Below, piece by piece: positions 16,008-58,790 of a stretch of DNA of 64,000 nt (the stretch's first letter is position 1; each line of letters starts with the position of its first letter). The position numbers and the translations under genes were made by a program. This stretch comes from an uncultured Oscillospiraceae bacterium (GTDB lineage Bacteria; Bacillota; Clostridia; Oscillospirales; Oscillospiraceae). The notes under the pieces were generated by a model. That model was not told the origin of the DNA, did not search any database, and saw nothing but the letters and a program-made list of their open reading frames with translations. The DNA is taken from contig CALXDP010000001.1 of assembly GCA_944387095.1 (NCBI GenBank), forward strand, positions 1 through 64,000. The letters run 5' to 3'.

Positions 16008-16180
16008 TACATGCCGCCTATATCAGGAGCGGGGGGCTTCGTCGGGGCAAAGTCCGCTCCTGTTCGCAACGCCCCGCCGGACCTTGTTCCCTTCCCTCCC
16101 TCTCTCCGGCGAAACCGCCCTCTCGGCTTCCGTCGGGACCCCGGATGGGTCAGCCGGGCCGACAAGCCCCAGCCGCAAAA
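16008..16180 (-). repeat. Copy of the groEL 3' end plus spacer element
   Basis: Bases 16008-16034 repeat the groEL C-terminal coding end (TACATGCCGCCTATATCAGG against TACATGCCGCCCATATCGGG at 16233 onward), so the minus strand can encode APDIGGMY again, though without the stop. The spacer 16035-16180 is GC-rich and shares blocks with the spacer behind eno, notably CAAAGTCCGCTC next to the gene-end copy and a CTCTCC..CGAAACCG..TCGG(G) block. No gene is present. Confidence 0.7.
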
Positions 16181-16208
16181 AGGCCCCCCGGCATATGCCG
16201 GAGGGCCT
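16181..16208 (-). terminator. groESL terminator
   Basis: AGGCCCCCCGGCA pairs with TGCCGGAGGGCCT and runs into TTTTTGCGG on the minus strand, 20 bp beyond the groEL stop. Confidence 0.85.
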
Positions 16209-16228
16209 GAAAGGATTTTTGCCGTCTC

Positions 16229-17854
16229 TTAATACATGCCGCCCATATCGGGAGCGGCGGGAGCGGGGGCGGGGGGCTGGGGCTTGTCGGCCACCAGCGC
16301 CTCGGTGGTCAGCAAGATGGAGGACACAGAGGCCGCATTCTCCAGGGCGGAGCGGGTCACCTTGGTGGGATCCACGATGCCGGCGGAGAGCATGTCGCAA
16401 TACTCCTCCTTGTAGGCGTCAAAGCCGTAGCCGGCCTTTCCGGAGTCCTTCACCTTCTCCAGCACCACGGAGCCGTCAATGCCGGCGTTGGCGGCAATCT
16501 GCTTCATGGGCTCAGCCAGAGCCTTGGCAATGATGGACACGCCAGTCTTTTCATCACCCTCCACCGTGGACAGCAGGGCCTCCACCGCGGGGATGGCGTT
16601 CACATAGGCGGTGCCGCCGCCGGCTACGATGCCCTCTTCCACCGCGGCCCGGGTGGCGTTCAGCGCGTCCTCGATGCGCAGCTTCTTCTCCTTCATCTCC
16701 GCCTCGGTAGCGGCGCCCACCCGGATGATGGCCACGCCGCCGGCCAGCTTGGCCAGCCGCTCCTGGAGCTTCTCCTTATCATAGTCGGAGGTGGTATTCT
16801 CGATCATGTGGCGGATCTGGGCCACCCGGGCGGCGATGTTCTCGGAGGAGCCAGCCCCATCCACAATGATGGTGTTCTCCTTCTGGACCTTCACCTGGCG
16901 GGCGGAGCCCAGCATATCCATGGTGGCCTCTTTCAGCTCCATGCCCATGTCAGAGGAGATCACGGTGCCGCCGGTGAGGATGGCAATATCCTCCAGCATC
17001 TCCTTGCGGCGGTCGCCGAAGCCGGGAGCCTTGATGCAGCACACGTTCAGGGTACCCCGCAGCTTGTTCACCAACAGGGTGGACAAAGCGTCGCCCTCCA
17101 CATCTTCTGCCACGATCAGCAGCTTCTTGCCGCTCTGGACCACCTGCTCCAGAATGGGCAGCAGCTCCTGGATGGAGGAGATCTTCTTATCGGTGAGCAG
17201 AATGAGGGGATCATCCAGCACGGCCTCCATCTTCTCGGTGTCTGTGACCATATAGGGGGTGATATAGCCCCGGTCCAGCTGCATACCTTCCACGACCTCG
17301 GAATAGGTCTCGGCGGTCTTGGACTCCTCCACGGTGATGACGCCGTCGTGGGAGACCTTCTCCATGGCCTCGGCGATCAGGTTGCCGATGGTATCGTCGC
17401 CGGAGGAGATGGCGCCCACCCGGGCGATATCAGAGGTGCCGGACACGGGCTTGGAGTTCTTTTTGATCTCCTCAATGGCAGCGTCGGTGGCCTTGGCGAT
17501 ACCCTTCTTCATGACCATGGGGTTGGCGCCGGCAGCCAGGTTCTTCAGACCCTCACGGATGATGGCCTGGGCCAACAGGGTGGCGGTGGTGGTGCCGTCA
17601 CCGGCCACGTCGTTGGTCTTGGTGGACACTTCCTTGACGATCTGGGCGCCCATGTTCTCAAAGGGATCCTCCAGCTCGATCTCCTTGGCGATGGTCACGC
17701 CGTCGTTGGTGATCAGGGGGGTGCCGAACTTCTTGTCCAGCACCACATTGCGGCCCTTGGGGCCCATGGTGATCTTTACGGTGTCGGCCAGCTGGTTGAC
17801 CCCCCGCTCCAGGGCGTGGCGGGCTTCCTCACCGTAGCAAATGAGCTTAGACAT
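16229..17854 (-). CDS. groEL: Chaperonin GroEL
   Basis: A 541-aa group I chaperonin of normal length, forming the 14-mer ATP-driven folding chamber with GroES in the cytoplasm. Family landmarks are intact: the nucleotide-binding stretch [27 protein letters not shown], and a C-terminal tail ending DMGGMY. GGAGGT precedes the ATG. It follows groES by 93 bp and shares its CIRCE-controlled promoter. Its 3' end is partly duplicated at 16008-16034. Confidence 0.99.
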
Positions 17855-17947
17855 GATAGCATTACCTCCAAAATGAGATGTTTTTACAAAAAGTGATAGG
17901 AAAACGACCGTGCGGTGGCAGTGGCAATCGCGCCTGCCCCGCAGCTT

Positions 17948-56560: not shown

Positions 56561-57337
56561 TCATCCCTGCTGATTGGCCGCGTTGATGATCGCCAGAAAG
56601 TCCTCCGGCTTCAGAGATGCTCCCCCAATCAGTCCGCCGTCGATGTCGGGTTGGGAGAGCAGCTCAGCGGCGTTCTTGGCGTTCATGGAGCCGCCGTACT
56701 GGATGGTGACCGCCCGGGCCACCCGGGCGCCGTACCCCTTGCGGATGATGGCCCGGATGTGGGAGCACACCGCCCCCGCCTGCTCGGCGGTGGCAGTCTT
56801 GCCGGTACCGATGGCCCAGATGGGCTCATAGGCGATGACCACCCGGCGCACCTGGCTCTCGGTGAGCCCCGCCAGGGCTACCTTCACCTGGTAGGTGATC
56901 AGCTCCTCGGTGACGCCCAGCTCCCGCTGCTCCAGGCTCTCACCCACGCAGAGAATGGGGCGCAGTCCCGCGTCCAGAGCCGCCCGCACCTTTTTGTTGA
57001 CGGTGAAATCTGTCTCGTTGTAGTACTGCCGGCGCTCGGAGTGGCCGATGATCACATACTTGGCCCCCACGTCCTTGAGCATCTCCACGGTGACCTCGCC
57101 GGTGTAGGCACCGGAGGCCTCATAGTGACAGGTCTCACCGCCGATAGCCACCCGGGTATCCCTAAACAGCCGGACGGCGCCGGGGATATTCACGGAAGGC
57201 ACGCAGAGCACCACCTCACACCACTTGTGCTTGCCCAGCATGGGCTTGATGGCCTCAGCATAGGCTTTCGTTTCGGTGAGGGTCTTGTTCATCTTCCAGT
57301 TGCCGGCGATGATGGTCTTACGGTACTTCAAATTCAT
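56561..57337 (-). CDS. tpiA: Triose-phosphate isomerase
   Basis: A 258-aa TIM barrel: IIAGNWKMNK (catalytic Lys), VIIGHSERRQY (His), the catalytic Glu in VIAYEPIWAIGTGKTAT (phosphate loop region), and GGLIGGASLKPEDFL. AAAGGAAG precedes the ATG. It lies between pgk and gpmI; the pgk-tpiA gap is widened by the pgk 3'-end duplication. Confidence 0.98.
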   Translation of the reverse strand: MNLKYRKTIIAGNWKMNKTLTETKAYAEAIKPMLGKHKWCEVVLCVPSVNIPGAVRLFRDTRVAIGGETCHYEASGAYTGEVTVEMLKDVGAKYVIIGHSERRQYYNETDFTVNKKVRAALDAGLRPILCVGESLEQRELGVTEELITYQVKVALAGLTESQVRRVVIAYEPIWAIGTGKTATAEQAGAVCSHIRAIIRKGYGARVARAVTIQYGGSMNAKNAAELLSQPDIDGGLIGGASLKPEDFLAIINAANQQG

Positions 57338-57392
57338 CTCAGGAAACTTCCTTTCTACGTTTCTTCTATCTTAACGCGGCTGGCTCAAGTTC

Positions 57393-57595
57393 TACTTGCC
57401 CAGCAGGCCGGCAGTTCCTTGCCCTCCAGAAACTCCAGAGAGGCGCTCTCCCAGCGAAGCTGCGCTTCGCCGGGTCCCCTCCTTCTAAAATCCTCGGGCG
57501 AAATGAATCCGCCCTGCGGCAAGGTTTGCTGCGCAAACCCTTGTGCGCGCCATTCGGCGCGGCTCGCCTGCGCTCGCGCGGCGGCGCTGGAACTC
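57393..57595 (-). repeat. Copy of the pgk 3' end plus structured spacer
   Basis: 57410-57446 is identical over 37 bp to 57625-57661 inside pgk (codons for [12 protein letters not shown]), and the more distal end is a shortened match down to the stop region. The spacer 57447-57595 is a string of small hairpins (GCGAAGC..GCTTCGC, GGGCG..CGCCC, AAGGTTTGC..GCAAACCCTT). It shares CTCGGGCGAAATGAATCCG with the eno spacer, followed in both by a hairpin and GCTTGTGCGG/CCTTGTGCGC. No gene. Confidence 0.8.
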
Positions 57596-57596
57596 T

Positions 57597-58790
57597 TTAC
57601 TTGTCCAGCAGACAGGCAACCCCAGGCAGTTCCTTGCCCTCCAGAAACTCCAGAGAGGCGCCGCCGCCGGTGGAGATGTGGGTCATCTGATCGGCGTAGC
57701 CCAGCTGGGCCACCGCCGCGGCACTGTCGCCGCCGCCCACGATGGTGATGGCGTCGGTGTCGGCCAGGGCCTTGGCCAGGGCACGGGTGCCCTCGGCAAA
57801 GGCGGGGAACTCAAACACGCCCATGGGTCCGTTCCAGATCACGGTGCCCGCGTCCTTCACCGCGTCGGAGAACAGCTGGATGGTCTTGGGACCGATGTCC
57901 ATGCCCATGCGGTCATCGGGGATCTTCATGGTGTCCACCAGCTCGGGCTTGGCATCGGCGGAGAACTCTGCGGCGCACAGGGTATCCACCGGCAGCAGGA
58001 ACTTCACGCCCTTGGCCTTGGCCTTGTCCATCATCTCCTTGCAGTAGTCCAGCCGGTCCTCCTCCAGCAGGGAGGTGCCCACGCTGCCGCCCATGGCCTT
58101 GATGAAGGTATAGGCCATGCCGCCGCCGATGATGATGGTGTCGGCAATGTCCAGCAGGTTGTTGATCACGCCGATCTTGGAGGAAACCTTGGCTCCGCCC
58201 AGGATGGCCACCAGGGGACGCTTGGGGTTGGCCAGGGCGCCGCCCATAATCTCCAGCTCCTTCTGGATCAGGAAGCCGGACACGGCGGGCAGGTAGGCGG
58301 CCACCCCGGCGGTGGAGGCGTGGGCCCGGTGGACGGTGCCGAAGGCGTCGGACACATACACATCGGCCAGGGAAGCCAGGGCCTTGGCAAACTCGGGGTC
58401 GTTCTTCTCCTCCCCCTTGTCGAAACGCAGATTCTCCAGCAGCATAATCTGGCCGGGCTGCAGCGCGGCAGCCTTGGCCCGGGCGTCCTCGCCGATGATA
58501 TCCTTGGCAAAGATGACCTCCTGGCCCAGCAGCTGGCTCAGCCGCTCGGCCACGGGGGCCAGGGTCAAAGACTCTTTCCACTCCCCCTTGGGCTTGCCCA
58601 GGTGGGAGCAGGCGATCACCGCCGCCCCCTGCTCCAGCAGGTACTTCAGGGTGGGCAGGGCGGCCACGATGCGCTTGTCGTCGGTGATGGCGCCGGTGGC
58701 CTTATCCTGGGGCACGTTAAAATCGCAGCGGCACAGCACCTTCTTGCCCTTCACATCAATGTCTTTGACCGTTTTCTTGTTGTAATTCAT
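57597..58790 (-). CDS. pgk: Phosphoglycerate kinase
   Basis: A 397-aa PGK making ATP and 3-phosphoglycerate. N-lobe substrate residues: [43 protein letters not shown]. The C-lobe nucleotide site is [19 protein letters not shown], and the Gly-rich loop is [21 protein letters not shown] precedes the ATG. First gene of pgk-tpiA-gpmI-eno. Confidence 0.98.

Follow-up and report, generated by a model that had tools for sequence, protein, structure and literature searches.

Introduction

Group II introns recognise the flank of their insertion site by base pairing between exon and intron and are found in conserved genes, OMEGA/IscB guide RNAs carry a 5′ guide beside a structured scaffold, and integrative elements at tRNA genes or other gene 3′ ends regenerate the gene end when they insert. 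REP/REPIN and miniature inverted-repeat transposable element (MITE) families have, to our knowledge, neither copies of gene ends nor ends complementary to their sites. Among published ideas of a structured RNA that pairs across an insertion site, the bridge RNA of IS110 comes closest to the elements described here, which have a different layout; its pairing is by way of internal loops, and the insertion sequence that codes for its recombinase also encodes the bridge RNA. The accessible part of that report makes no mention of target-site duplication (PMC11208160). For IS1549 and IS1634, long and variable flanking direct repeats (8–514 bp) are reported, with no mechanistic model in the accessible part of the source (PMC2266710). 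Here, a family of short, hairpin-rich, non-coding elements is described from a 64,000-nucleotide stretch of DNA from an uncultured Oscillospiraceae bacterium (GCA_944387095.1, contig CALXDP010000001.1, positions 1–64,000; hereafter the window), where members lie behind groEL, eno and pgk, each accompanied by a second copy of the gene's end.

Each element consists of a scaffold of about 135 bp, generally joined on its left to a stretch complementary to the intact insertion site (the guide) and to a copy of the edge of the adjoining gene. As in group II introns, the guide pairs with the flank of the site, conserved genes are involved and the guide matches its own site variant; unlike them, the scaffold is only about 135 nt, has no Rfam group II match at the loci scanned and carries the gene edge along. 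The elements share with REP/REPIN and MITE families that they are short, hairpin-rich, non-autonomous and dispersed, and with integrative elements at tRNA genes and gene 3′ ends that the gene is regenerated by the incoming copy. They differ from the latter in being too short for an integrase gene (units of about 200–250 bp; the search did not extend to integrases elsewhere in the genomes), in using many different targets and in having a guide. Long direct repeats of variable length (23–148 bp here) flank the insertions as in IS1634 and IS1549, which are 1.5–2 kb long and have a DDE transposase and terminal repeats, whereas the element here has about 135 bp and no gene, lacks a fixed left terminal repeat, has a site-complementary left end and shows clustered spacing. 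No description of these elements was found in the open-access literature of PubMed Central, from which subscription papers are largely missing.

Results

The duplicated-end loci belong to a dispersed family of hairpin-rich, non-coding elements of about 135 bp. The spacer between the two eno ends had 21 further matches in the same genome (E < 1e-5), and a 22-base element motif (≤2 mismatches) occurred in 24 of 37 same-genus genomes, the source genome included, compared to none for a reversed-pattern control; the preliminary description had supposed the spacers to be related above chance, and they are. Among named records, the motif was present in isolates and metagenome-assembled genomes of gut bacteria labelled Pseudoflavonifractor, Flavonifractor, Oscillibacter, Intestinimonas, Dysosmobacter, Enterenecus and Evtepia. 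In a search with a 137-position covariance model of type B elements, first suggested with the preliminary description, 24 of 245 genomes sampled from the order were positive, some with at least 13 matches (13 were scored per genome; the sample was drawn from a larger group under stricter filters). The element is therefore short, non-coding and multi-copy, as a MITE would be. In Rfam scans of 10 + 6 loci the element itself went unmatched, the sole match being a SAM riboswitch in L044 that lies outside the element; a known RNA family was rejected on this basis.

The scaffold appears to be maintained as a folded molecule. Five of its 14 predicted pairs change on both sides with pairing kept, namely in H2 (C-G to G-C, about 20 sequences per pair), at one pair of H4 (G-C to A-U, 28 sequences) and in the clamp around H4 (24 sequences); RNAalifold recovered only these 14 pairs, since H1, H3 and H5 do not align. 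These double-sided changes argue for a scaffold folded as RNA or single-stranded DNA (ssDNA). A diverged scaffold (family f7; G070, G042, G089 and G134) reached at least 13 matches per genome. Further, copies occur in viral contigs (L377, L380, L381, L382 and L384), some in tandem, and in four of these (L377, L380, L382 and L384) the element lies at the 3′ end of what we take to be the large terminase gene. Phages could carry the element between hosts.

Direct repeats flank most of the elements. They were found at 36 of 48 motif-chosen elements compared to 10 of 540 control points, at 55 of 67 among the matches listed in named records compared to 9 of 302 control points, and at nine of ten loci in the near-finished genome G212 (7 contigs). 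Forty loci were hand-picked from motif matches listed among same-genus genomes, and the 48-element set omits L039, L042 and L043 of the source genome as well as motif-less loci (among them L020 and L023, both repeat-flanked). The 67 scored places are those with 400 bp on either side, among 80 listed of at least 120 stretches, and include two probable chance motif matches, L209 and L186, from Acidobacteria and Deltaproteobacteria records; L209 was also kept in the guide set. Chance is rejected by the controls for the flanking repeats and by those for gene ends given below. An assembly artefact is rejected likewise, as repeats also occur in the 7-contig genome and in isolates (such as P. capillosus An827 [L181, L227], Flavonifractor An10 [L215] and An112 [L232], and P. 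phocaeensis An901 [L170]). A repeated element associated with duplicated gene ends, as first proposed from the window, is present well beyond it.

The repeats are predominantly gene edges. In 71 of 85 repeat-flanked loci, compared to 73 of 552 control stretches, a long reading frame has its end in the interval from the repeat start to the scaffold, and the unit of edge copy, guide and scaffold measures 198–250 bp in 56 of the 85, over many genes and species. Many of the affected genes look, from their ends, to be housekeeping genes (glmS, nfo, efp, infB, metK, asnS, fusA, secA, smc, uvrB and others). The initial proposal that 3′ gene ends are targeted captures most loci, but the target is the gene edge more broadly: what we take to be the start of lepA is copied, with the element antisense, in L077, L088, L175, L212 and L231, and the repeat of L053 also holds a gene start with the element antisense. 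In the loci inspected, the complete gene is the copy to the left of the element, in agreement with the earlier suggestion that the gene is regenerated. Tandem arrays of gene end plus element occur at smc (L029, L062) and glmS (L179) and in L056, L074, L076, L170 and L196. A duplication bound purely to the stop codon was rejected; between site and guide, whose distance has a preferred value, the stop codon is variably placed. Contig C15 of G000 ends inside the smc array (L029) and C8 begins with the same element motif (L031), which suggests that tandem arrays break assemblies.

The guide adjoins the scaffold on its left. Its sequence is reverse-complementary to the intact insertion site, in most cases on both sides of the insertion point. 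Over 85 unique loci (of 88, with repeat spacing up to 480), the mean pairing score was 11.2, compared to 6.3 for mismatched pairs; scores of at least 10 were reached by 59 of 85 loci compared to 171 of 7140 mismatched pairs (2.4%), and scores of at least 12 by 40 of 85 compared to 48 of 7140. The insertion point was spanned by 52 of the 59 guides scoring at least 10. In further genomes and phages, scores of at least 10 occurred in 13 of 18 rows (which include tandem copies and two near-identical contigs) compared to 30 of 306, or at 10 of 15 distinct loci. Guide lengths were 21 nt at groEL of G027, 18 nt at groEL of the window, 16 nt at L196, 13–15 nt at lepA and 13 nt at efp. Where sites at orthologous positions differ, the guide change matches 25 of 26 pairwise site differences, a count in which the pairs are non-independent and the scoring favours paired positions. 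The same geometry holds at 3′ ends, at 5′ ends and in phage genes. The left terminus varies among copies, tending to track the site, and a fixed terminal inverted repeat, as a MITE would have, is absent. Insertion sites tend to have GG just before and at the insertion point, resembling the element's right terminus (GTGGGGA); uncertainty in the repeat boundaries contributes to this tendency. Among type A elements, the groEL copy of the window has a guide, as do, by eye, the pgk copies of G020 and G061, but none is seen at pgk of G064 and G027.

Site and guide are for the most part separated by about 70 nt. The distance between their centres is clustered, at 80–87 nt in 31 of 57 loci and 110–118 nt in five of 57. 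All seven loci at 110–118 nt, two of them added by hand (groEL of the window, and L156 with a guide placed by eye and an automatic score of 6), have a perfect hairpin of 11–14 bp between site and guide, these being the terminators of eno (twice), fusA, rpsI and groEL and, twice, a hairpin inside the terminase gene. At loci with 76–95 nt, the intervening hairpin never exceeds 10 bp. With the hairpin length subtracted, the long loci come to about 62–75 nt, compared to 59–76 nt in the main group. The pattern, found in the data in hand, is suggestive of a ruler measured on a folded single strand. In a further set, the stems of four distinct long-spaced phage loci were 8, 9, 8 and 11 bp, so that one of four reaches 11, and L084 (104 nt) and L155 (133 nt) have long spacing without such a hairpin. 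Short centre spacings (42–52 nt) were recorded at L053, L056, L065, L080, L086, L170 and L211.

Relatives that lack the spacer, a comparison raised in the preliminary description, do exist. Element-free relatives have a single pgk or nfo end followed by other sequence, infB is vacant in G003 and occupied in G036, and glmS is without the element in G000, with only an apparent fragment of the left end of the element in G035. The cleanest pair is efp, where G011 has 224 bp that G006 lacks: the last 300 bp of the gene are identical (300/300; upstream, 1192/1203), and the sequence downstream of the site is 96.7% identical over 519 bp with no match beyond (forced alignment of the next 900 bp, 615/873). 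The extra sequence in G011 is an exact 42-bp copy of the gene end plus 182 bp, which include approximately 35 bp resembling the 3′ untranslated region of relatives (by eye), the guide and the scaffold; the vacant site in G006 has no guide. The difference is a gain in G011 or a loss in G006, which that pair alone does not distinguish. Elements at one gene have gene-specific features in common in distant species, by eye, both at pgk (G000, G035, G006 and G021) and at nfo (G003, G036 and G020). The two copies of the gene edge are alike within a genome yet differ between species (nfo, G003 compared to G036; pgk, G000 compared to G035), and so are seemingly homogenised. At lepA, the insertion is at the same position, within one base, across genera; this and the copies on viral contigs favour spread, although the data fit vertical inheritance with loss as well as horizontal spread.

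The preliminary description had reported duplicated ends at five loci of the window, and repeats are indeed present at all five, but only groEL, eno and pgk are placed together in one family. All features given below are on the reverse strand. At pgk (57597–58790; Pfam PGK; L014), the last bases at 57625–57661 are repeated without a mismatch at 57410–57446 (37/37). The intact end is followed by a 10-nt guide (57578–57587), which pairs with the target arm at 57658–57667, by a type B element (57448–57577; model R1, 97.5 bits) and by the displaced end (57392–57446), identical to the gene over 37 bp and then diverged. At eno (53601–54968; Pfam Enolase_C/N; L004), 96 bp of the end are duplicated at 78% identity. 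The proximal terminator hairpin (53562–53588) precedes the guide (53534–53554), which pairs with the target arm (53647–53667) at a score of 15 with mismatches present, then a type B element (53391–53528; model R1, 107.1 bits) and, fused behind it, a type A module (approximately 53285–53390, with CAAAGTCCGCTC at 53290–53301). The displaced eno end (53185–53284) has its stop at 53226 and a second terminator (53185–53211) that is 96% identical to the first.

At groEL (16229–17854; Pfam Cpn60_TCP1), the last bases of the coding sequence are the intact, proximal copy, and 33 of 37 positions agree between 16225–16261 and 16000–16036. The target arm (16275–16292) is the exact 18-nt reverse complement of the guide (16157–16174), and the terminator hairpin of the proximal end (16182–16207) lies between the stop codon and the guide. 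A type A element follows (16039–16156, ends approximate and by eye), with CAAAGTCCGCTC, common with the eno copy, at 16048–16059, and then the displaced end (15962–16038) with a second terminator (15962–15989). Type A copies also occur at pgk of G020, G027 and G064 (by eye). In the window, the type B model, which does not cover type A elements such as that of groEL, matched strongly only at eno and pgk (next best, E = 0.019).

The other two loci are not counted as members because of this restriction of strong matches to eno and pgk. The end of the 211-aa gene and its terminator (3967–4037) are repeated 1186 bp downstream (5153–5223, 86% over 71 bp), with an APH-like (phosphotransferase family) gene in the spacer (whole region, 3967–5223), and the window scan with the element model gave no match there; this locus is probably a different kind of duplication. 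The 3′ end of tRNA-Tyr has a 19-bp near-copy (18/19) 240 bp downstream (whole region, 11289–11547), separated by a spacer that has inverted repeats and does not match the element model. Elsewhere, a third repeat type, GATAGACGCATAGG...CCATGCGTCCAATCC, lies between pgk and tpiA in L125, L129 and L133, single or in tandem, with no copy of the pgk end by eye and no Rfam match in the two loci scanned (L125 and L133).

Enzyme candidates were sought with RVT_1 and RRXRR. Of the 42 genus genomes, 17 had no RVT_1 match; as these include several carriers of the element, a resident reverse transcriptase was rejected, which leaves room for an enzyme from outside. A resident IscB was rejected because RRXRR passes the cut-off in one of 42 genomes; the only weak matches, in G025 and G011, fall inside frames of 1,365 and 1,369 aa. 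No family tested combines a gene-edge copy with clustered spacing and a left end complementary to the site, the DDE, IS110, Y1, TnpB and tyrosine-recombinase families being outside those tested.

Discussion

The best reading, which we hold at slightly short of an even chance, is that these loci are mobile units that home into the edges of orthologous genes. The unit, mostly 198–250 bp, would be the gene-edge copy, the guide and the non-coding hairpin scaffold. The guide (about 10–21 nt) would pair with an intact site, mostly over 3–8 nt on the gene side, the remainder falling within the beginning of the unit, and the unit would insert at the paired site, its own edge copy completing the gene while the original edge of the host stays behind the element as a remnant. 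Such units may spread among orthologous genes of related species with essential genes unharmed, and because an intact site remains next to the gene, further units could insert and give rise to tandem arrays. The intermediate would be single-stranded (RNA or ssDNA), and the enzyme would presumably act in trans. That the family exists with the features described above is a strong claim. From the complementarity of guide and site we infer that the guide directs insertion, and guide-directed homing is put forward as a hypothesis whose chance is below even without being small. More tentatively, the homing element may be purely non-coding, a guide-bearing single strand or structured RNA that would locate conserved edges by pairing, insert with a rescue copy and in this way spread through the essential genes of a bacterial family harmlessly; with comparable reserve, it might be likened to a home-and-rescue gene drive that lacks a protein of its own.

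Several observations weigh against homing. No mobilising enzyme was found with RVT_1 and RRXRR (DDE, IS110, Y1, TnpB and tyrosine-recombinase families were not searched); RVT_1 is absent from the element-bearing G000, G036, G020, G035, G006 and G018, and RRXRR is above the cut-off only in G012. A guide scoring at least 10 is lacking at 26 of 85 loci, and nine of 57 loci fall in a shorter spacing class (42–57 nt). Among 29 loosely matched places in the source genome, found with the eno spacer or a looser motif and many matching just part of the spacer, a spanning repeat was present at 10 and absent from 19. The f7 family of distant relatives (G070, G042 and G089) has the scaffold but flanking direct repeats at just one of 27 fetched loci and is perhaps a form that moves differently, or merely an old repeat. 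Vacant sites could also stem from loss by recombination between the repeats, and the intact site that persists on the gene side is one that a double-strand-cutting nuclease should not tolerate.

The main rival, which we consider unlikely, is a miniature transposon mobilised by a DDE transposase in trans that generates unusually long target duplications, as in IS1634 and IS1549, with only the gene-sparing insertions surviving. The exact 42-bp repeat at efp speaks for such an element, as does the position of gene ends, which in 71 of 85 loci fall after the repeat start and before the scaffold, and the long variable repeats reported for IS1549 and IS1634, in the portion of the source that is accessible, provide a precedent (PMC2266710). 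It leaves the guide unexplained, as the left end, rather than being a constant terminal repeat, tends to complement each site, and it does not account for spacing that clusters and is longer where a hairpin intervenes. Many targets, moreover, look to be conserved housekeeping genes.

It also seems improbable that the loci are ordinary intergenic hairpin repeats reworked by template switching, slippage and gene conversion, with the complementarity a by-product of quasi-palindromes or a selected hairpin at the mRNA 3′ end. Repeat copies that are alike within genomes and different between species, the tandem arrays, the lack of an enzyme from the searches with RVT_1 and RRXRR and the 19 of 29 places without a spanning repeat all accord with this explanation. 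Against it stand the shared geometry at 3′ ends, 5′ ends and phage genes, the insertion within one base at the same lepA position in different genera, and the vacant efp site without a guide.

Target-primed reverse transcription of a read-through transcript, in which the guide places a nick and the following site sequence serves as the primer-binding site, would account for the layout of guide, scaffold and site and for spacing that behaves as if measured on a folded strand, but is very unlikely given element-bearing genomes without RVT_1, among them G036 (98% complete) and G020 (96%). Less probable again is homing by an RNA-guided nuclease of the IscB, Cas9 or TnpB type, with the element as a free-standing guide RNA that is copied into the cut it directs. 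The guide lies on the 5′ side of a structured scaffold, as in OMEGA/IscB systems, and the insertion is a few bases from its 3′ end; however, RRXRR passes the cut-off in only one of 42 genus genomes (G012, with weak matches in G025 and G011; TnpB was not searched), and occupied genomes, unlike those expected under this model, retain an intact site. Hardly credible are remnants of ordinary integrative elements deleted down to their attachment sites: the gene is regenerated and a repeat stands on both sides, as at tRNA islands, but a unit length of 198–250 bp recurs across many genes and species (56 of 85 loci), alongside a conserved scaffold and a guide. The likeness to tRNA-targeting integration drawn in the preliminary description extends to the regeneration of the gene, while a plain integrase and attachment-site model does not predict a stretch complementary to the site at a preferred spacing.

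Even with a mundane mechanism, the family accounts for gene ends that are repeatedly found duplicated and for tandem arrays, which may break assemblies. Should the guide direct insertion, the elements would represent a novel mode of programmable DNA insertion and a novel means by which mobile DNA is tolerated within essential genes.

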